This document shows positions 4,808-14,866 of a DNA stretch of 64,000 nt, piece by piece. The first letter of the stretch is position 1, and each line of letters starts with the position of its first letter. A program made the position numbers and the translations under genes. The DNA is taken from NCBI RefSeq assembly GCF_001029285.1, contig NZ_LDZY01000002.1, forward strand, positions 124,001-188,000, written 5' to 3'. Source of the DNA: Desulfosporosinus acididurans. Lineage in GTDB: Bacteria > Bacillota > Desulfitobacteriia > Desulfitobacteriales > Desulfitobacteriaceae. Under the pieces are notes generated by a model. It was not told the DNA's origin and did not search any database. It saw only the letters and a list, made by a program, of their open reading frames with translations.

Positions 4808-6168
4808 ATGTTTAGTATTCGCCAAGAAAGGCTATTTTCCTTGGAGGAAATTTTAGAAATGTCTCCCAAAAAATCATATCCCCTCATTTTCGATACACTT
4901 GACATCACCTCGTTGTTGAGAGTTGTTTCCAAAAGAGCAATACTCGGAGCTCCAACAAGACTTAACTATTCTGCCATGATCTACTCCTTTATTCATTCGA
5001 GTCATCGAACGAATTCCTACGATTTAAAGACTTACGAAAACGATTAAAAAATAGCTTGGAATTCCGTTTCAACTGCGGTTTTACGATGGCAGATTCAGTC
5101 CCTAGTGAGTCCTCTTATACTCGGATGATTCAAAAAATCCATGTCTCTTCTGCTTTAGGAAACATTCAAAATGAACTAGTCTCTCAGGCGTTTCAAGAAG
5201 GCTTCATCGATGGGGATGTTATCGCCATCGATGCTACTCATATTGAAGCGAGAGATCGTAAACCTGAGAAAAAGAAAGAAGAAGAGGCCCCAGTCGAGCA
5301 AACCCCCAAAAAACGCGGACGAAAACCGAAAGCGGAACGGGAGAAATGGCTCAAAGAGCAACAGGAACTGGAAGAGAATCGACCCCTCTTTGAGAAGAAA
5401 ATTGAAGCACAACTTCCTCTTGATTTTAAGGCGATCGAACAGCAAATCCCGCAGATGCCTCACTGGGGAATTAAGAAAAACTCTGAGGGTAAAAACGTCT
5501 TTTGGTTCGGCTTCAAGGGTCATCTTCTCGTAGAGTGTAAACGCCAATATATTTTAAAATCCTTGCTTTCCTCGGGAAATGTCAATGATGGCAAAATGGC
5601 GATTCCTCTACTCAAGGCTCTCCATGAACTTCATCCCCAGCTGAAACCTTCCTATTCGCTTTTGGATGCTGGTTACGATTACAGCCCAATTTACCAACAA
5701 GCAAAGGCCATAGGATCAAAGGCCCTAATTGATTACAATTCACGAAATGAAGAACTACCAGAAGACAAGGACAAATACTTTCGCCCCAAGTGTCAACAGG
5801 GTCATTCTTACCGATATGATAGCTATGATTCCCAATACGACACGTTGAAATATACTCAACCCAAGGAGTGCAAAGAGTGCCCTCTGAAAGAAAGCAACCA
5901 GTGTCAAAAAGTATTCAAGGTTAAGGTTTCATCAGACCCCAGAAAATACACCGTTCCGGCCAGAGGAAGTGAGAGCTACTTTGAACTTTATAAACAAAGA
6001 ACAGCCGTAGAACGTGTTAATGCTTATCTCAAAGAGTACTTTCAGTTAAACAACATTCGCCATCGAGGAAACTTAGCCAAAGTCGATTTCGACTTTTCTA
6101 TCCTGACATACACTCTCTGCAAATTAGCCGTAGACCGATTGAACAAGTCTAAACGTGTAGCTGCATAA
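4808..6168 (+). pseudogene. IS1182-family DDE transposase, frameshifted
   Basis: Two overlapping reading frames together encode one IS1182-type transposase. The N-terminal part (4808-5047) ends YSAMIYSFIHSS. The C-terminal part continues in the next frame from about 4995 (SSNEFLRFKDLRKRLKNS then the long frame to 6168). The acidic triad is visible: D in VIAIDATH, D in LLDAGYDY and E in RTAVERVNAYLKE, plus a CxxC-type cluster (CKECPLKESNQC). A one-base shift near 4992-5002 separates the parts, with no classic slippery heptamer there, so it is more likely a dead copy than programmed frameshifting. Clear terminal inverted repeats were not identified. Confidence 0.8.
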
Positions 6169-6346: not shown

Positions 6347-6375
6347 TTGACAGGCTAAAGATCAGAGACTATACT
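6347..6375 (+). promoter_or_regulatory. Sigma-A promoter of tetR-ehr locus
   Basis: TTGACA at 6347-6352 and TATACT at 6370-6375 with a 17-bp spacer, just ahead of the TetR gene and the Hyf-like operon. Confidence 0.65.
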
Positions 6376-6383
6376 TTGCAAGG

Positions 6384-6401
6384 CTACCTAACGTTTGGTA
6401 G
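6384..6401. promoter_or_regulatory. Candidate TetR operator
   Basis: Inverted repeat CTACC-TAACGTTT-GGTAG directly downstream of the -10 box at 6370-6375, i.e. over the likely transcription start. This position would allow repression by the TetR protein encoded from 6427. A related half-site GTTAGG recurs at 6409. Confidence 0.45.
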
Positions 6402-6426: not shown

Positions 6427-6975
6427 ATGGAAACAAAGAAAAAACTTATGGATTCTGCCTTCAAATTGTTTGCTTATAAAGGAAACGAGTTTTCTTTGGC
6501 CGAAGTGGCAAGTGAAGTCGGGATTCAAAAAGCCTCTATCTATGCTCATTTTGCCAGTAAAGAAGAGCTGTTGTATGCGGTGATTGATCAGGAGATCAAT
6601 CAATATTTTTTGGAAATCAATGAGCACTATCGGGATTTGAAAAGCATGTTTTTTATGATTTTGAATTATTACGATAGATCTCAAACGAAGCTGTATTTTT
6701 GGAAAAGGCTGCTCTTGTTTCCTCCTCAAGCCTTTGAACAGACGCTTATTGCCAAAATACATATCTTATCTGAGGAGCGCTTTCAAATCGTTAAAGATAT
6801 CATTCGGGCCAATATGAAGGAGGGGATTATTCGCAATCAAGACCCGGAAACAGTGGCTGCTTCCTATATGGCCTTGATTCATGGTATCTTATCAAGCGTC
6901 ATTATCTATCAAGCTGAAAATGTTACAATCCATTTGGAAGGGATCTGGAACAATTTTTGGAAGGGGATTTGCTAA
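6427..6975 (+). CDS. TetR-family regulator preceding the Ehr operon
   Basis: A 182-residue protein from the ATG at 6427, chosen because AGGAGTG sits 9 bases upstream; a TTG at 6376 would place the operator inside the gene. Residues 1-50 form the TetR helix-turn-helix (FSLAEVASEVGIQKASIYAHF), followed by a helical ligand domain. The stop lies 43 bp before the first gene of the Hyf-like complex, same strand, so it probably lies in the same transcript and regulates it. The inducer is unknown. Confidence 0.88.
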   Translation: METKKKLMDSAFKLFAYKGNEFSLAEVASEVGIQKASIYAHFASKEELLYAVIDQEINQYFLEINEHYRDLKSMFFMILNYYDRSQTKLYFWKRLLLFPPQAFEQTLIAKIHILSEERFQIVKDIIRANMKEGIIRNQDPETVAASYMALIHGILSSVIIYQAENVTIHLEGIWNNFWKGIC

Positions 6976-7018: not shown

Positions 7019-9076
7019 ATGGAGCAATATTTGCGCAATTTATTTTTGATGTCTGTTTTATTGTATGTACTAGGTGCTGCTGCTTCGGCTCTAATCTATT
7101 TTTTCAAAAAACCGTATAAAACCAGTATGACCGGCAGCGTTATGGTAAATGCCGTCTGTATTGTTGCTTCCGGTCTGGGAGGAGCCGCTTCTGCGGCTAA
7201 AATTTTGTTGGCAGTTAATTCTCTAAAACTGATTAACTTATCATCTACCATCCCGTTCATATCTTTAGAGATGAACCTGGATAACCTTTCGGCCTATTTC
7301 GTATTGGCCCTATCTGTCTTAGTGTTCTGCGTTTCCCTCTATTCTATCGGCTATCTTTCCCATTACAACGGAAAAAGAAATATTGGACTTTTTAATTTGT
7401 TATATACTTTGTTTATTCTTGCGATGATTGGTGTCTTGACTTCAGCCAATACAGTTTGTTTCTACATATTTTGGGAAGCGATGTCCTTGCTTTCCTACTT
7501 TTTGGTGGTTTTCGAGTCGGAGAAAGAGGAAAACACCAAAGCAGGAACAGTGTACATTGTCATGACCCATATTGCCACGGCTCTGCTCCTCATAGGGTTT
7601 ATTATCATTTATAGTTATACAAAGTCCTTTGCTTTAAGCGCAAATACGGCGGCTATCCCCGGGATGGCCAAAAATATTGTGTTTATACTTTTCTTGATCG
7701 GTTTTGGAACTAAAGCCGGTATTATACCTCTGCACATTTGGCTGCCTCACGCCCATCCAGCAGCCCCCAGCAATGTTTCGGCACTAATGTCTGGCATCAT
7801 GATTAAGACAGCGATTTATGGACTGGTTCGTTTTGTGCTTTGTTATCTGGGTGTCCAAAATACTTGGTGGGGAGTTGTGATCTTAATTCTTGGTATTTTG
7901 TCTGCTGTTCTCGGCGTTGCCTATACCTCGATGGAGCATAATGTTAAGCGGCTTTTAGCTTTTTGCAGTGTAGAAAATATCGGAATTATCCTGATTGGCT
8001 TAGGCGTTTCTTTTATTGCCTTTGCCCTGCATCATCAAATTATCGGCAGTTTAGCTTTGACTGCTGCTCTTTTGCATACCTTTAACCATACGTTATTTAA
8101 AGGCGGCCTTTTTCTCGGGGCAGGTGCTATTCAATATGCAACTCATACTAAAAATATTGAAGATTTAGGCGGCCTTATTAAAACAATGCCCCTTACGGCC
8201 TTGTTTTTTCTTTGCTTCTCTCTAGCCATATCGGCTATCGTCCCTTTCAATGGTTTTATCAGTGAATGGCTGACCTATCAGTCGCTTTTTGCCAGTATTC
8301 TCCCTGGCCATATCGGATTGAATTTCTTAGCTGTTTTAGCTGCCGCTGCCCTTGCTTTGACAGGGGCTATGGCTGCCGCTGCCTTTGTGAAACTTTTTGG
8401 CATATCTTTTTTGGGTTTGCCCAGAAGTGAGCAAGCAGCTAAAGCCCAAGACGTTCCGGCAACGATGATGATAGGGATGGGAATACTTGCAGCCCTCTGC
8501 CTGGGCATTGGCCTTTTCCCATTAACAATGATAAAGCTTTTGGACAAGGTCGTTTTTAGTGTAGGCGGCGGTTCCATCTCTGGTCAGCTTCGAGGAGGGT
8601 TTTTGCTGGCCTATTACCCGTTAACGATCTCAGTGAACAGCATATCTCCCCTAACTTTTATGCTCGCTTTGGGTGTCATCATTCTTCTTGCGTTCATCGT
8701 GATTAGAATTGTGGGGGGGAAATACATCGAACGGAGATACGGGACTTGGGATTGTGGGTTTGAGGCTTTGAATTCCCGTACGCAATATAGTGCTACAGGT
8801 TTCTCCAAACCCATTAAGATTGTCTTTAGGGCCTTATTCAGGCCGATCCGCAAAACGATTGTTGAAGGGGATTCGCAGTATCATCCGGAAGCGATTATTT
8901 ATTCCACTACCGTTACTTCAATTTTTGAAGATTACCTGTATGAGCCCGTCTACAGAGCGCTGCTCAGGTTTTCCAGAAGAACAAAGTTTAGAGTTCAGAC
9001 CGGTAGCATTCACAACTACCTTTTCTACATTTTTGCGCTGGTCTTGTTGTTAATGTTATATAACCGCTTTGCATAA
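7019..9076 (+). CDS. hyfB: HyfB-like antiporter-type membrane subunit of Ehr complex
   Basis: A 685-residue polytopic protein of the NuoL/MrpA/HyfB proton-antiporter family with about 16 hydrophobic segments. Features include FYIFWEAMSLLSYFLVVFE (the conserved acidic helix), GFGTKAGIIPLHIWLPHAHP (the Lys-containing channel helix) and a HyfB-like tail YGTWDCGFEALNSRTQYS. It would form an ion-pumping arm in the cytoplasmic membrane. ATG at 7019 with GGAGGT 11 bases upstream. First structural gene of a six-gene operon (7019-14866) in the order B, C, E, F, G, H-I. Confidence 0.92.
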   Translation: MEQYLRNLFLMSVLLYVLGAAASALIYFFKKPYKTSMTGSVMVNAVCIVASGLGGAASAAKILLAVNSLKLINLSSTIPFISLEMNLDNLSAYFVLALSVLVFCVSLYSIGYLSHYNGKRNIGLFNLLYTLFILAMIGVLTSANTVCFYIFWEAMSLLSYFLVVFESEKEENTKAGTVYIVMTHIATALLLIGFIIIYSYTKSFALSANTAAIPGMAKNIVFILFLIGFGTKAGIIPLHIWLPHAHPAAPSNVSALMSGIMIKTAIYGLVRFVLCYLGVQNTWWGVVILILGILSAVLGVAYTSMEHNVKRLLAFCSVENIGIILIGLGVSFIAFALHHQIIGSLALTAALLHTFNHTLFKGGLFLGAGAIQYATHTKNIEDLGGLIKTMPLTALFFLCFSLAISAIVPFNGFISEWLTYQSLFASILPGHIGLNFLAVLAAAALALTGAMAAAAFVKLFGISFLGLPRSEQAAKAQDVPATMMIGMGILAALCLGIGLFPLTMIKLLDKVVFSVGGGSISGQLRGGFLLAYYPLTISVNSISPLTFMLALGVIILLAFIVIRIVGGKYIERRYGTWDCGFEALNSRTQYSATGFSKPIKIVFRALFRPIRKTIVEGDSQYHPEAIIYSTTVTSIFEDYLYEPVYRALLRFSRRTKFRVQTGSIHNYLFYIFALVLLLMLYNRFA

Positions 9077-9115
9077 TGATATAAGTTTGCAGAGAAAGAG
9101 AGGGGAGATTGCACA

Positions 9116-10072
9116 ATGAACAATATTGTTTACCTCTTGGTTCAATTATTAGTCATTTTACTCGTTGCACCTTTCGTTAATGGATTGATCAAAAAGGTTA
9201 AAGCCTTGAGCCAAAAAAGAAAAGGTGCTTCAGTTTTTCAGATGTATTTTGATTTGTACAAACTTGTTAAAAAGAAAACTGTCGTTTCGAACGTTTCTTC
9301 GTGGATTTTTCATGTGACTCCCTATATTGTCTTTGCGACAGCTATGGCTGCGGCCTTGCTTGTTCCTGTTTCGACGAAGATTCTGCCGCCGCAAATTCCA
9401 GGAGACTTTATTATGGTTGTTTCCATCTTGGCTCTCGGCAGGTTTTTTCTGATGATTGCAGCGCTGGATACGGCAAGTACCTTTGGCGGAATGGGCAGCA
9501 GCAGGGAGGCCATGATCTCTGCGCTCATTGAACCATCTATCCTGATCTCGATGTTCACGGTTGCCCTCATTTCCCGCTCAACGTCGCTGCCTCAAATCAT
9601 GGAAACGGTTCAGAAGGTTGGAATTCCCTTAGCTCATCCGGTCTATATCATGGTAGGCCTGGCCTTATTAATTATTATCCTTGCCGAGACCTGCCGCATA
9701 CCGGTTGATGATCCGGCTACACATCTGGAATTAACGATGGTTCATGAGGCAATGATTCTGGAGTATTCCGGGAGACATTTGGCTCTGTTAGAATACGGCG
9801 CCGCAGTAAAACAGCTTGTTTTTATGACCTTGTTTGTGAATATTTTAATCCCCCAAGATCAGTTGATTGGAGTAATAGGTTTAGGGGCGCTGATCCTTTC
9901 GCTGCTCATTTATTTACTAAAGGTCATTTTGCTGGCTTTGGTCATGGGAATTATTGAGGTCAATACGGTCAAATTAAAACTTTTCAGCATCCCCAATCTG
10001 GCCGCCCTGTCCTTTATCCTTGCATTTTTAGGTGTTTTACAGTTTTTGATCCTGGGAGGTAAGCATGTCTAA
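9116..10072 (+). CDS. hyfC: HyfC-like (NuoH-type) membrane anchor subunit
   Basis: A 318-residue protein with eight hydrophobic segments, homologous to HyfC/HycD and NuoH, the subunit linking the peripheral arm to the pump. Recognisable stretches are QKRKGASVFQMYFDLYKLVKK after helix 1 and ETCRIPVDDPATHLELTMVHE, with the conserved acidic residues of the coupling loop. Ribosome site GAGAGGGGAG before the ATG. Overlaps the next gene by 8 bp, indicating translational coupling. Confidence 0.92.
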   Translation: MNNIVYLLVQLLVILLVAPFVNGLIKKVKALSQKRKGASVFQMYFDLYKLVKKKTVVSNVSSWIFHVTPYIVFATAMAAALLVPVSTKILPPQIPGDFIMVVSILALGRFFLMIAALDTASTFGGMGSSREAMISALIEPSILISMFTVALISRSTSLPQIMETVQKVGIPLAHPVYIMVGLALLIIILAETCRIPVDDPATHLELTMVHEAMILEYSGRHLALLEYGAAVKQLVFMTLFVNILIPQDQLIGVIGLGALILSLLIYLLKVILLALVMGIIEVNTVKLKLFSIPNLAALSFILAFLGVLQFLILGGKHV

Positions 10073-10739
10073 TTTGGCAGTGAATTCTAATCTGTTAGAA
10101 ACTCTATCGGTCTTAATCCTATTATCTTCCTTCGTCCTGATGGCTAGTAAAAGAATCAATTCCTACATTAAAACCTTTCGGATTCAGTCGTTCCTGATCG
10201 CTTTAGCCGCCGGCATCATGGGGCTCCGAAGTCTGATAAGCGAGGGGCGGTGGGATTTTCTGGTGGTGTGCCTGCTCATCATGATCTTCAAGGTTCTTTA
10301 TATTCCCAACATGTTGAGCAAAACTTATAAGAATGTCAGCTACAAAGTTGAAAAAGACTTTATTTTAAATATTCCTATCCTCGTCTTGCTCTGCTGCGGA
10401 CTCGTTGTGTTTTCTTACTTCACCTTGACAGGGGTTGACGGGCTTAGTCAGGACGTTTTAAACCTGCAGCTTGTCAACGCGGTCTCTGTGATCTGGATTG
10501 GTCTTTTGTTTATGATCAGCCGTAAGAAAGCGATCGGCCAGATCATCGGCTTCTTGGTCATCGAAAACGGTCTTTATATTACCGCGATGTACTCAACACA
10601 AGAGATGCCCTTTATCGTTGACCTGGGGATCTTTATTGACCTTCTTACCTTTGTGTTGATTATGGGTGTTATGACGTTTCGCATCAATGAAAAATTCGAG
10701 TCCATTGATACAGATCAACTGAATAACCTGAAAGGATAA
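10065..10739 (+). CDS. hyfE: HyfE-like membrane subunit
   Basis: A 224-residue hydrophobic protein with about seven membrane segments. It resembles HyfE, a subunit related to the NuoK/MrpC type with extra helices (VIENGLYITAMYSTQEMPFIVDLG contains the conserved Glu of the K-type channel). The start overlaps hyfC and the stop is 10 bp before hyfF. Part of the ion-translocating arm. Confidence 0.88.
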   Translation: MSNLAVNSNLLETLSVLILLSSFVLMASKRINSYIKTFRIQSFLIALAAGIMGLRSLISEGRWDFLVVCLLIMIFKVLYIPNMLSKTYKNVSYKVEKDFILNIPILVLLCCGLVVFSYFTLTGVDGLSQDVLNLQLVNAVSVIWIGLLFMISRKKAIGQIIGFLVIENGLYITAMYSTQEMPFIVDLGIFIDLLTFVLIMGVMTFRINEKFESIDTDQLNNLKG

Positions 10740-10749
10740 GATACAGAAG

Positions 10750-12222
10750 ATGGGCATTTTACTCCTAATCGTACCTTTAGTTGCAGTCCTGTTGTTATTA
10801 ACCGTCAAACAAAGCCAATTCCGGCATGCTATAAGTGTTGGGACTTCAAGTTTGCTGCTGATCCTGGCCTTAAGCCTGAATCGTGAGGTGCTGCTTCACG
10901 GCAGTGTTCAATACGCTTCTTGCGGTGGTTTCTTCTATGTTGATGCTTTAAGCATGATTGTTTTAGACATTGTATTGATCATTGGTTTTATGGCAGCCAT
11001 TTTTTCGCTTGGTTATTTAGAGGAAGAAATTAAGCACGGCAAGCTTAAAAGGGAAAGACTGGGCCTCTATTATAGCCTGATGTATACCTTTATTTTTACG
11101 ATGGTGCTCGCGTTAACAGTGAAAAATATGGGGCTGATGTGGATTGCCATTGAGGCCACATCCTTGTCGTCGGCCTTTCTGGTCGGGTTTTATAATGATA
11201 AACATGCTTTGGAGGCCGCCTGGAAGTATGTGATTCTCTGTTCGGTGGGAATTGCCATTGCCCTACTGGGGATTATCCTGCTTCATCTCTCCTCGGCCGG
11301 TGTTTTAAACAGCAGCTCATTTTTGGATTGGACTGCTCTATATACCAAGGCATCTTCGCTGAAAAGTTCTGTTTTACGGCTGGCTTTTATTTTTATTCTC
11401 ATTGGTTTTGGCACGAAGGCCGGTCTTGCTCCGATGCATAACTGGCTTCCCGACGCTCATAGTCAAGCCCCTTCCCCAATCAGTGCCCTGTTGTCCGGGG
11501 TCCTCTTGAATACCGCTCTGTATGGGATTATTCGTGCAGCAGTCATTGTCGATCGTAATCAGGGAAGCAGCAGCTTTACGGGAAGGCTTCTCATCGGTAT
11601 TGGAATCTTATCCATTGCCACGGCGGCCGTTTTCATTCTAACTCAAAAAGACTATAAAAGACTCTTGGCCTATTCCAGTATCGAACACATGGGAATTATT
11701 GTTGTTGCCATGGGTCTGTACTCTCCTTTGGCTGTCTTCGGAGGGCTCATGCACATGATTAACCACTCTCTGACCAAATCGATGCTGTTTTTTTCGTCGG
11801 GTAATATCTTGCAGAAATATGACACCAAACAGATTTCCAAGCTCAAGGGAGTCCTGAAAATAATGCCGGTAACGGGGACAGTCTTCCTGCTGGGCTTGTT
11901 TGCCATTGCCGGTACTCCGCCCTTTAGTGTCTTTGCCAGTGAGTTCAGCATTGTGGTTGCTGTATTTAACGGTCCCTACAAATGGGTTGGGGTAATTTTT
12001 GTCTTGCTTTTGGCTGCAGTATTTGCAGGGATTGCCGTAACGTTACTGAAGATTTTTTACGGTGAACCGGATGATAAGAACTTGCAGGTTGGTGAAGTAA
12101 ATCTTCCGGGGACCGTTTGCCTGGTCATTCTGCTGGTTGGCATTACAGTCAGCGGCCTTTATCTGCCGGGAGATTTAAAAGAACTTATCACAAAGGCGCA
12201 AGGTATTATTCTTGGAACATAG
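10750..12222 (+). CDS. hyfF: HyfF-like antiporter-type membrane subunit
   Basis: A 490-residue second antiporter-like subunit (NuoN/HyfF family) with about 14 hydrophobic segments. The channel motifs GLMWIAIEATSLSSAFLVG and FGTKAGLAPMHNWLPDAHS are intact. Two antiporter-like subunits in one complex imply ion pumping as in Hyf or Mrp-linked complexes. The start is 10 bp after hyfE; a 30-bp gap with AGGAGGG leads to the large-subunit gene. Confidence 0.92.
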   Translation: MGILLLIVPLVAVLLLLTVKQSQFRHAISVGTSSLLLILALSLNREVLLHGSVQYASCGGFFYVDALSMIVLDIVLIIGFMAAIFSLGYLEEEIKHGKLKRERLGLYYSLMYTFIFTMVLALTVKNMGLMWIAIEATSLSSAFLVGFYNDKHALEAAWKYVILCSVGIAIALLGIILLHLSSAGVLNSSSFLDWTALYTKASSLKSSVLRLAFIFILIGFGTKAGLAPMHNWLPDAHSQAPSPISALLSGVLLNTALYGIIRAAVIVDRNQGSSSFTGRLLIGIGILSIATAAVFILTQKDYKRLLAYSSIEHMGIIVVAMGLYSPLAVFGGLMHMINHSLTKSMLFFSSGNILQKYDTKQISKLKGVLKIMPVTGTVFLLGLFAIAGTPPFSVFASEFSIVVAVFNGPYKWVGVIFVLLLAAVFAGIAVTLLKIFYGEPDDKNLQVGEVNLPGTVCLVILLVGITVSGLYLPGDLKELITKAQGIILGT

Positions 12223-12252
12223 GCGTATGAGGGGAAGAGGAGGGCACGAATA

Positions 12253-13959
12253 GTGATGACATCGAACTTAAAAGGGAATCTTGAGAGTAAATTTGCTCTC
12301 AAGGTTTTTTCTGGTAAGGAATTTTCAGAGACAGCCTTTCCGCTGGCAACAAACCAAGTAAATATTAATTCTCAAACTACTTTGGCTTCTGATAAAGACA
12401 ATTCGCAGCATGTCAGCTTCAGCGATCACGATGATAAATTTTGGCAGGAACAGGATAATGTCTATTATCTTGAAGCGCCTTTGGCAAAGGTCAAAGAGAT
12501 TTGCTGTTATATTCAGGAACTTGGCTGTCCTCTCGTCTTAATGTTTGCCAATGATGAGCGGAACTTTCAAGCAGGCTATGCTGTTTATTATGTTTTTGCG
12601 GTTAGAGAAGAAGGTATGCTCGTAGTGATCAAAACCAAGGCAGACCCGGAAAGTATGGAGATCCCTTCTATTAGCAATCATCTTCACGCTGCCTCAGGTT
12701 ATGAACGTGAAATTCAGGACTTGTTCGGACTTGTGCCGATTGGGCATCCCGATGCTAAACGACTCGTCTTTCACGGCAATTGGCCTCAAGGAGTGTATCC
12801 TTTGCGCAAGGATTTTGCTGTCGGGCAAAAGCCGGATTTTGCTCAAGAAAAAATCCGCTTTCAGGAAGTTGTGGGCGAAGGTGTTTATGAGATCCCCGTT
12901 GGCCCGGTTCACGCCGGGATTATCGAGCCCGGTCACTTCCGGTTTAGTGTTGCGGGTGAACCGATTATTAATCTTGAAGCGCAGTTGTATTACGTTCATA
13001 AAGGGATTGAAAAATTAGCTGAAGGTCAAAGCCTTGAAAAGTGCCTGTTCATTGCCGAACGGATCTCAGGGGATGAGACTTTTGCCAATTCGCTGGCCTA
13101 CTGTCAGGCGATTGAAAAAATTGCCGGAACGAAAGTTCCTGCCAGAGCAGCCTATACCAGAGTTCTCTTTGCTGAACTGGAGAGACTCACCAGCCACTTA
13201 GGTGACCTTGGCGGAATTTGTCTTGACGCAGGTTACGGTTTTGCTAACTTTCAGTTTCAAATGATGAGAGGTTGGGCTTATTCCGTTGCCGATGAACTCT
13301 GTGGTATGCGGTTTTTAAGAAGTGTCAATAAACTGGGCGGAGTCAGAAAGGATTTCGTGTCCGGTAAGGAAGCTAAGCTAATTGAACTGCTGTTAAATAT
13401 TCGTTCCGAACTTGAAGACACCGTGAATATTGTTAAATCGAACAGTATGTTTATCGATAGAGTTGAAAATACAGGTATTCTGGAGCCCAAGATAGCTGTT
13501 GATCTAAATGCTGTAGGACCGGGAGGACGAGCGTCAGGGATACGTTACGATGTTCGCAAAGCGTTCCCCTATGCGGCTTATCCAAATTTGAATTTTAAGG
13601 TCCCTGAACACAACAATGGAGATATTAACTGTAGAATGAATACTAAAATTGAAGAGAGCTTTGAAGCGATCGACTTAATGATTCAGGCTATTGAAGGGAT
13701 GCCTGTGGGGAAGGTTTGTGAACCAATCGCGGAGGTCAAGCCTTATCGTTTCGCTTTCGGGTTAACCGAAGCTCCACGGGGTGAAAATATTCACTGGGTG
13801 ATGACCGGAGAGAATAATACCCTTTACCGTTATAAAATCAGAACTCCTTCCTTCTGCAACTGGCCTGCTCTCTGCCACGCTGTTAAGGGAAATATCGTCC
13901 CGGATTTTCCTCTGATTAATAAGAGTTTCAATCTTTCCTATGCCGGAAATGATTTATAG
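12253..13959 (+). CDS. HyfG-like (NuoC-NuoD fusion) large subunit lacking NiFe ligands
   Basis: A 568-residue protein. Residues about 60-190 are a NuoC/30-kDa-like domain (HAASGYEREIQDLFGL, YPLRKDF). Residues 210-568 are the NuoD/hydrogenase large-subunit fold. In true [NiFe] hydrogenases the N-terminal motif contains CGxC and the C-terminal one DPCxxC. Here they read ERISGDETFANS (269-280) and FPLINKSFNLSYAGND at the C-terminus, so all four nickel-binding cysteines are absent and there is no C-terminal maturation peptide. This matches the energy-converting hydrogenase-related (Ehr) group rather than a hydrogenase. GTG at 12253 is favoured by AGGAGG 9 bases upstream; ATG at 12256 is possible. 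Confidence 0.88.
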   Translation: MMTSNLKGNLESKFALKVFSGKEFSETAFPLATNQVNINSQTTLASDKDNSQHVSFSDHDDKFWQEQDNVYYLEAPLAKVKEICCYIQELGCPLVLMFANDERNFQAGYAVYYVFAVREEGMLVVIKTKADPESMEIPSISNHLHAASGYEREIQDLFGLVPIGHPDAKRLVFHGNWPQGVYPLRKDFAVGQKPDFAQEKIRFQEVVGEGVYEIPVGPVHAGIIEPGHFRFSVAGEPIINLEAQLYYVHKGIEKLAEGQSLEKCLFIAERISGDETFANSLAYCQAIEKIAGTKVPARAAYTRVLFAELERLTSHLGDLGGICLDAGYGFANFQFQMMRGWAYSVADELCGMRFLRSVNKLGGVRKDFVSGKEAKLIELLLNIRSELEDTVNIVKSNSMFIDRVENTGILEPKIAVDLNAVGPGGRASGIRYDVRKAFPYAAYPNLNFKVPEHNNGDINCRMNTKIEESFEAIDLMIQAIEGMPVGKVCEPIAEVKPYRFAFGLTEAPRGENIHWVMTGENNTLYRYKIRTPSFCNWPALCHAVKGNIVPDFPLINKSFNLSYAGNDL

Positions 13960-14005
13960 TAATTTTGCTACCGAGGGAATTTTATACAAAGCAAGGAAGA
14001 TAGAT

Positions 14006-14866
14006 ATGTTCGATACTTTGAAAAAAATTATTAAATATCCAAGGCTGACGCAGGATTATCCCAATAGAAGCCTTACTCCCGCTTCGTTTCTGGGCCAAAC
14101 GGAGATCGATACGGCGAAATGTAATTTCTGCGGAGAATGTGCCTTACATTGCCCTTCTCAGGCCATTGTTCTGGATAAAAGTGCCCGGAGCATAGGCATC
14201 GACTACGCAAAGTGTATCTTTTGTATTCTGTGCGAGGAGATTTGCCAGGTTGGTGCAGTCCAAACGACGAACAAATTTGAACTGGCTGTAAGGGATAAGG
14301 TAACGCTGAATAATCACGCTTTATGTGCTAATGCCTTAAGAGATACGCCTTTAAGCAATAAGAGTAACGGTGAATCTTTTTATAAGACTGCTGTAATTAA
14401 TGAAGAAAACTTACCAAACACCTCCTACGAAACTATTTGCAGCGATCTACAAGCAACTGTCAAGAAGATTTTTGGCCGAAGTCTCCAAATCAGGGAGGTC
14501 GATGCCGGATCTTGTAATGGCTGTGATTACGAAATTAATGCTTTGAATAATCCTTTTAACGATCTCGAAAGGCTCGGGATAAGCTTTGTTGCCTCGCCGC
14601 GGCATGCCGATATGTTGTTGGTAACAGGAACCGGAACCAGAAATATGCAGCAGGCCTTGGTTAAAACGTATGAAGCAACGCCTGATCCCAAGCTTGTTGT
14701 CGCCGTAGGTGCCTGTGCCTGCAGCGGAGGAATTTTCAGAGATACCTATGCCACAAATAACGGCATTGATGCTCTGGTACCTGTGGATGTCTATATCCCG
14801 GGATGCCCGCCGAGACCGCAGGCAATCATCTATGGAATCCTGAAAGCCATAGATAGAGTTAAGTAG
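14006..14866 (+). CDS. Fused ferredoxin (HyfH) and NuoB-like small subunit (HyfI)
   Basis: A 286-residue fusion from ATG 14006, with AAGGAAG just upstream; an earlier frame start at 13940 overlaps hyfG and lacks a site. Residues about 38-85 carry two 4Fe-4S motifs (CNFCGECALHC and CIFCILCEEIC), as in HyfH/NuoI. Residues about 165-286 are the NuoB-like small subunit with GSCNGCDYEINAL, GACACSGG and PGCPPRP, which supply all ligands of the proximal [4Fe-4S] cluster. The electron wire is therefore intact although the partner large subunit has no nickel site. Last gene of the operon. Confidence 0.9.
   Translation: MFDTLKKIIKYPRLTQDYPNRSLTPASFLGQTEIDTAKCNFCGECALHCPSQAIVLDKSARSIGIDYAKCIFCILCEEICQVGAVQTTNKFELAVRDKVTLNNHALCANALRDTPLSNKSNGESFYKTAVINEENLPNTSYETICSDLQATVKKIFGRSLQIREVDAGSCNGCDYEINALNNPFNDLERLGISFVASPRHADMLLVTGTGTRNMQQALVKTYEATPDPKLVVAVGACACSGGIFRDTYATNNGIDALVPVDVYIPGCPPRPQAIIYGILKAIDRVK

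Follow-up and report, generated by a model that had tools for sequence, protein, structure and literature searches.

A Hyf-like, Ehr-type membrane complex in Desulfosporosinus acididurans whose large subunit lacks all four nickel ligands

We analyzed a stretch of 64,000 nucleotides from Desulfosporosinus acididurans (RefSeq assembly GCF_001029285.1, contig NZ_LDZY01000002.1, positions 124,001 to 188,000), hereafter the window, in a source genome (G000) of 4.64 Mb on 47 contigs. It carries six genes for Hyf/complex-I-type subunits, all on the + strand at 7019-14866. The large subunit is a homolog of the group 4 [NiFe] hydrogenases, yet both CxxC pairs that bind the NiFe center are missing (S/E and S/G). 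The preliminary description, made from the sequence alone, had seen here an energy-converting-hydrogenase-related (Ehr) complex without a nickel site, and our comparisons bear this out. We favor, without great certainty, the reading that the complex would be a nickel-free, stand-alone, ferredoxin-oxidizing ion pump with a soluble acceptor.

All four nickel cysteines of the large subunit are gone, as the preliminary description had stated. A gapless alignment to MbhL places S272 at C68 and E275 at C71, and alignment with HycE, HyfG and four-cysteine relatives places S562 and G565 at the C-terminal pair. The hydrogenase CGxC is replaced by S272-G-D274-E275 and DPCxxC by N560-L-S562-Y-A-G565-N-D-L. 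The protein ends in ...SFNLSYAGNDL, which corrects the earlier quotation only by its final leucine. The cysteines had not simply moved elsewhere in the protein: inspection of its 11 cysteines found no CxxC anywhere. The lack of a maturation peptide, previously taken as a further sign of nickel loss, has no such value, since four-cysteine relatives also end in ...CYSCLDR, ...CYSCCDR or ...DPCISCTER. E225, the equivalent of MbhL E21, is retained, as is the PRGE motif. The closest solved relative is HycE (322.7 bits, 4.4e-95), with MbhL (169 bits, 1.6e-48), Nqo4 (169) and the MBS counterpart 6u8y_L (117) weaker. A Foldseek search with the AlphaFold model of the large subunit (pLDDT 69) ranked formate hydrogenlyase/HycE first (TMq 0.74), which confirms the fold and nothing more.

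To describe the family, we searched the genus (29 genomes), the family (45), the GTDB contigs, a phylum sample (398) and the genus of Acetobacterium bakii (19), using tblastn at E <= 1e-20, open reading frames (ORFs) of at least 280-300 residues and one sequence per identical pair; L069, identical to L008, and pieces of L007 were dropped in this way. Orthologs were then counted as distinct by a 98% threshold applied to the final 300 residues. SGDE is present in all 26 distinct large subunits and NLSYAGNDL in 25, the remaining one having NLSYSGNDL, and two signature-bearing orthologs are just 49% identical to the large subunit of the window. The operon was found in 3 of the 29 genus genomes and 4 of the 45 family genomes. 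At least 12 genomes of the phylum sample have it at E <= 1e-155, with the signature in 12 of 12 and retained across eight family codes; scoring stopped at three candidates per genome, which makes these counts lower bounds. Five of the 19 Acetobacterium genomes carry the operon (signature in 5 of 5), and 15 of 17 relatives on GTDB contigs bear the signature. The carriers include A. bakii DSM 8239, A. fimetarium DSM 8238 and several metagenome-assembled genomes (MAGs); the carriers appear strictly anaerobic, and sulfidic sites are the probable source of some. A scan of viral contigs gave zero relatives, and Rfam gave nothing at gathering scores.

The six genes are all there wherever a contig spans them. 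Across these and the TetR-family regulator gene upstream, the ratio of nonsynonymous to synonymous substitution rates (dN/dS) is 0.05-0.22, estimated in 18 of 21 comparisons (no dS came from the L070 comparison for the TetR, HyfB-like and large-subunit genes), and purifying selection acts on all seven. In the last subunit, the ferredoxin-domain cysteines C61, 64, 67, 71, 92, 95, 98 and 102 and the proximal-cluster cysteines C192, 195, 259 and 289 (numbered from 13940) are invariant in 16 sequences, and the proximal-cluster stretch aligns without a gap to MbhJ, with hydrogenase spacing. The claim that the iron-sulfur ligands are intact therefore stands; the accompanying claim for the pumping motifs holds for most of the residues tested. 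With E. coli numbering, the positions of NuoL E144, K229, K342 and K399 in the HyfB-like subunit are E, K, K and E (the last as in E. coli HyfB), and that of H254 is a gap, likewise in E. coli HyfB. In the HyfF-like subunit, NuoM E144, K234, K265 and E407 correspond to E, K, N and E, the N also being found in E. coli HyfF. Three of five NuoH positions are kept (E157, D213 and E220, not E216 and E218); the columns of NuoK E36/E72 did not align. With a conserved signature, low dN/dS, and both the iron-sulfur ligands and the majority of the pump residues tested intact, the loss of the nickel ligands is not decay.

Trees were built without the CGxC columns and without the C-terminus. The first omitted the partial sequences L032 and L083, and both were made without matches lacking a locus (e.g., a clade C protein of G021); for the second, 15 further sequences were taken out (14 that looked redundant by eye, and L033 because its branch is very long) and 9 added. 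The signature-bearing sequences form one clade (100/100 with 17 sequences in the first tree, 100/98 with 24 in the second), whose sister group consists of Hyf-like proteins from the same genus and related ones; the two join at 99/98 and 100/99, and four-cysteine HycE and HyfG fall outside. Among these sisters, clades A and C, from the same genus, keep the four nickel cysteines (CGxC...CYSC). Clade B, 8 sequences in 7 of the 29 genus genomes (L014, L015, L018, L019, L021, L035, L036 and L056), has SGIC...SYAC, in which each pair retains its second cysteine and has serine for the first, and its small subunit has an intact GSCN[GA]CD. In the loci compared, gene order in the clade A, B and C complexes equals that in the window, and their large subunits are 37-45% identical to the window's. 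A single ligand loss shared by clade B and the signature clade was rejected (approximately unbiased (AU) test, p 0.0042). Two separate ligand losses within the Hyf-like group thus appear well supported, clade B being a separate partial loss, possibly with another metal site.

Some relatives depart from these patterns. L033/L051 (G009:C35) have a divergent large subunit on a very long branch, with ERVAGVS...LNAASCDR and one cysteine, perhaps another Ehr type. The relative L084 (Thermincola ferriacetica MAG) reads CGVC...LFYSCLGR, with three of the four cysteines and phenylalanine for the third. At L049 (G014:C6), clade C and clade A Hyf-like operons stand in tandem in one genome. The clade A/C operons L044, L047 and L048 adjoin three TerD-like genes and a large regulator-like gene, as judged by eye from the beginnings of the ORFs.

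The available excerpt of PMC6349859 defines Ehr complexes as relatives of group 4 hydrogenases that have antiporter-like subunits and no Ni/Fe ligands, and counts Pyrococcus Mbx among them, while that of PMC7684303 reports a cryo-electron microscopy structure and polysulfide-reduction assays for MBS; the earlier view that Ehr complexes are known from comparative genomics alone does not hold. The complex of the window fits the definition by its group 4 homology, its missing ligands (0 of 4 cysteines) and its Mrp antiporter-like subunits (two Proton_antipo_M proteins). It differs from Ehr complexes in general by its own invariant signature, SGDE...NLSY[AS]GNDL, its own TetR regulator and palindrome, and its six-gene, Hyf-like make-up with ferredoxin and small subunit fused. 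The signature is not named in the titles or abstract beginnings of the literature found, which is no proof of absence.

We propose that electrons would enter from reduced ferredoxin at the two-cluster domain of the final subunit, a direction that we infer. The NuoB-like proximal [4Fe-4S] cluster would then hand them to a small, soluble acceptor in the pocket vacated by the NiFe center. The walls of this pocket may be formed by the invariant S272-G-D274-E275 together with the C-terminal N560-L-S562-Y-A-G-N-D-L, and E225 is kept. This redox step might drive ion export through the HyfB/HyfF-type subunits. The TetR repressor, acting on its palindrome, would switch the unit on when a ligand, perhaps the substrate, appears; an inducible unit would fit a substrate that is present just at times. 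Tentatively, and at slightly less than even likelihood, we picture a respiratory complex of strict anaerobes, the acetogen A. bakii among them, derived from a NiFe hydrogenase by conversion of the metal site into a carboxylate/hydroxyl pocket, in which ferredoxin oxidation would pump ions and the soluble acceptor would be neither protons nor quinone nor, by the known mechanism, polysulfide. The chemistry had been called open, but the field can be narrowed, with a NiFe site, menaquinone as a shared acceptor and the MBS mechanism disfavored.

Gene context is consistent with a stand-alone complex. Four of the eight genomes searched have no PF00346 protein besides the one in this complex; three of these four are Acetobacterium, A. 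bakii among them. Among the neighbors compared, TetR is the one that recurs across genera. Pfam on 20 neighbors and the beginnings of others gave no shared oxidoreductase near the operon, and no formate dehydrogenase or NuoEF was seen adjoining it; the scanned flanks hold a tRNA synthetase, an amidase, a carbonic anhydrase, a serpin, transporters and similar genes.

The complex could instead pass electrons from ferredoxin to menaquinone, in the manner of 11-subunit complex I. It has homologs of the NuoB/C/D/H/I/K/L/M type, the pocket subunits included, and most of the tested proton-path residues, N279 and F534 agree with all 7 NuoD sequences, and three Desulfosporosinus operon genomes have MqnA/D. 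Nor does the AU test reject the signature clade joined with NuoD (p 0.061, likelihood 14.9 units worse); an origin independent of complex I is likely, not proven. Convergence on complex I, at which N279, F534 and the RTPSF motif hinted, was considered and rejected, as the excess disappeared once control clades were included: among second-tree sequences, NuoD-like derived residues number 2/16 in the signature clade against 0/6, 4/23 and 1/8 in the sister clades. The quinone residues H38 and Y87 of Nqo4 (roles as given in the accessible part of PMC7684303) correspond without gaps to I224 and G273 here, and the complex further differs from complex I by fewer antiporter subunits and by a small subunit with a hydrogenase-type CxxC. 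Two NuoD are already present in G000. Menaquinone as a shared acceptor is also disfavored because MqnA/D is missing in 10 of 14 operon genomes (found in 4, one weakly) and MenB is above the cut-off in none of the 14, with weaker matches in 11; in A. fimetarium (G054), neither MqnA/D nor MenB nor the prenyltransferase family PF01040 gave a match. We regard this alternative as unlikely.

The carriers, apparently anaerobic and in part presumably from sulfidic sites, would also suit a polysulfide or sulfane-sulfur reductase working at an open proximal cluster like Pyrococcus MBS. MBS is itself an Ehr complex without a NiFe site (PMC7684303 and PMC6349859, in the portions available), and MBS/MBX (6u8y) shares with the complex of the window the lost nickel site, the ferredoxin-type input and the antiporter-like membrane arm. 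According to the excerpt of PMC7684303, however, the MBS cluster motif is three residues shorter and leaves one iron without a cysteine, and the equivalent of E225 is missing. The complex of the window has four proximal-cluster cysteines spaced as in MbhJ, no nickel cysteine where MBS retains two of four, a Hyf-type arm, and a weaker large-subunit match to MBS/MBX than to HycE (117 against 323 bits). Because the proximal site has four cysteines, the three-cysteine mechanism is disfavored, and we find a sulfur reductase of this kind doubtful, slightly more so than a menaquinone reductase.

The same machinery might run in reverse, an ion gradient driving the reduction of ferredoxin by some donor. 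Relatives of complex I are reversible, and direction cannot be read from a sequence. Against this, A. bakii has Rnf for coupling ferredoxin to ions, which would make a second route less needed; its published energy scheme, as far as the consulted section of PMC6239172 sets it out, comprises a bifurcating hydrogenase, Rnf and an ATP synthase and makes no mention of the complex described here. Reverse operation thus seems improbable.

A working hydrogenase whose metal site is non-canonical, or whose nickel is held by other residues, is harder still to uphold. In its favor, HycE is the best solved relative, and E225 and PRGE are kept. Of E. coli formate hydrogenlyase/hydrogenase 4, the subunits HyfB, C, E, F, G, H and I have equivalents in the complex. 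It differs from the E. coli system in lacking the nickel ligands and a C-terminal extension, in having two antiporter-like subunits, not three, and in an operon without a separate HyfA or a formate dehydrogenase. The four ligands are replaced throughout the clade. HypD is required for the NiFe cofactor, and a NiFe site is disfavored because HypD was found in just 8 of the 14 operon genomes tested; the six without it include A. bakii, A. fimetarium and a third Acetobacterium. A decaying remnant of a hydrogenase operon, which catalytic-ligand loss alone would resemble and which the fragmented TetR gene at L109 might suggest, can be dismissed in view of the low dN/dS, the signature kept across family codes and the complete gene set described above.

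Several observations weigh against the favored reading of a soluble acceptor and a stand-alone ion pump. Of 22 operon genomes, 18 have PF01040 prenyltransferases (UbiA-type, a broad family), that of A. bakii among them; G036, G048, G054 and G208 gave none. Several HypD- or MqnA/D-negative operon genomes are MAGs and possibly incomplete, and one missing marker family is not a missing pathway. The operon-bearing MAG G050 of the Acetobacterium set also has two NuoCD-like proteins (L104 and L105), and G000 itself has HypD, NiFe hydrogenases and MqnA/D in addition to its two NuoD. The structural model shows no pocket, its pLDDT falling below 50 at 196-251 and 543-568, i.e., at the site itself. Still, marker distribution argues against both a NiFe site and menaquinone as a shared acceptor.

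The genus offers a natural case of complex-I-family enzymes leaving hydrogen, with four, two or no nickel cysteines. In acetogens such as A. bakii, where the complex is the sole 49-kDa-family protein found, it may be a further energy-conserving step. Homology-based hydrogenase counts could list such subunits as H2-evolving. Three operon genomes (G207, G233 and G283) also carry a four-cysteine large subunit of 360-364 residues ending in ...DPCISCTER, and the Dehalobacter "Ech-type hydrogenase" would fit this protein better than the signature complex, judging from the available portion of PMC12542780.

Pfam and NCBIfam agree with the six genes of the preliminary description, the best models of the two Proton_antipo_M proteins being HyfB and HyfF. 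Its limits for the unit were too narrow, as the unit reaches upstream to the TetR gene and the palindrome (Table 1).

Table 1 Features of the operon and its upstream region in the window.
Feature	Position	Strand	Model or basis
Sigma-70-like promoter, function inferred	6347..6375	+	TTGACA 6347-6352, TATACT 6370-6375, 17-bp spacer
18-bp palindrome CTACCTAACGTTTGGTAG, putative TetR operator	6384..6401	none	
TetR-family regulator gene	6427..6975	+	PF00440 2.4e-11; start METKKK
HyfB-like (NuoL-type) antiporter subunit	7019..9076	+	Proton_antipo_M; NF005086 6e-194, under curated cut-off
HyfC/NuoH-like membrane anchor	9116..10072	+	NADHdh PF00146 5.5e-37
HyfE-like (NuoK-containing) subunit	10065..10739	+	NF008556 1.1e-24, under cut-off
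HyfF-like (NuoM/N-type) antiporter subunit	10750..12222	+	Proton_antipo_M; NF005044 4.3e-147, under cut-off
Large subunit, NuoC and NuoD-like domains	12253..13959	+	PF00346 (Complex1_49kDa), PF00329 (Complex1_30kDa)
Two-cluster ferredoxin domain fused to NuoB-like small subunit	14006..14866	+	PF00037 (Fer4), PF01058 (Oxidored_q6)

The small-subunit ORF opens at 13940; the start is probably at 14006 (MFDTLKK), because 12 of 15 ortholog ORFs, mechanically started, begin within three residues of it. The TetR gene is the probable first gene of the unit, a longer TTG start at 6376 being less likely than the one listed. Of the 19 distinct loci that could be judged, 13 have it 5' of the operon, at L109 in fragments; the other 7 of the 26 had too little sequence. 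The palindrome, a probable TetR operator, accompanies the regulator gene at each of these 13 loci; 11 copies match exactly and those of L071 and L109 differ at two positions, the pattern having been derived from these ortholog upstream sequences themselves. It is the sole site in the window at up to three mismatches (0 on the + strand, 1 on the - strand), against a chance expectation of 0.22 matches on average, 2 matches being reached in 2 of 100 shuffles. No further copy with up to two mismatches was found in 1,346,658 scanned bases, same-genome repeats included. Promoter-like boxes look similar, by eye, in the other ortholog upstream sequences compared, and TetR and palindrome behind a promoter are conserved between Desulfosporosinus and Acetobacterium.

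Directly 5' of the unit, at 5056-6168, lies an ORF for an IS1182-family transposase, none of which was seen at the G017 and G001 loci; its match begins at profile position 84 of 488, and the ORF is probably truncated or otherwise started. Among the other neighbors, an M50B-like gene recurs at three Desulfosporosinus loci alone, and a few downstream genes recur among the Acetobacterium loci alone.

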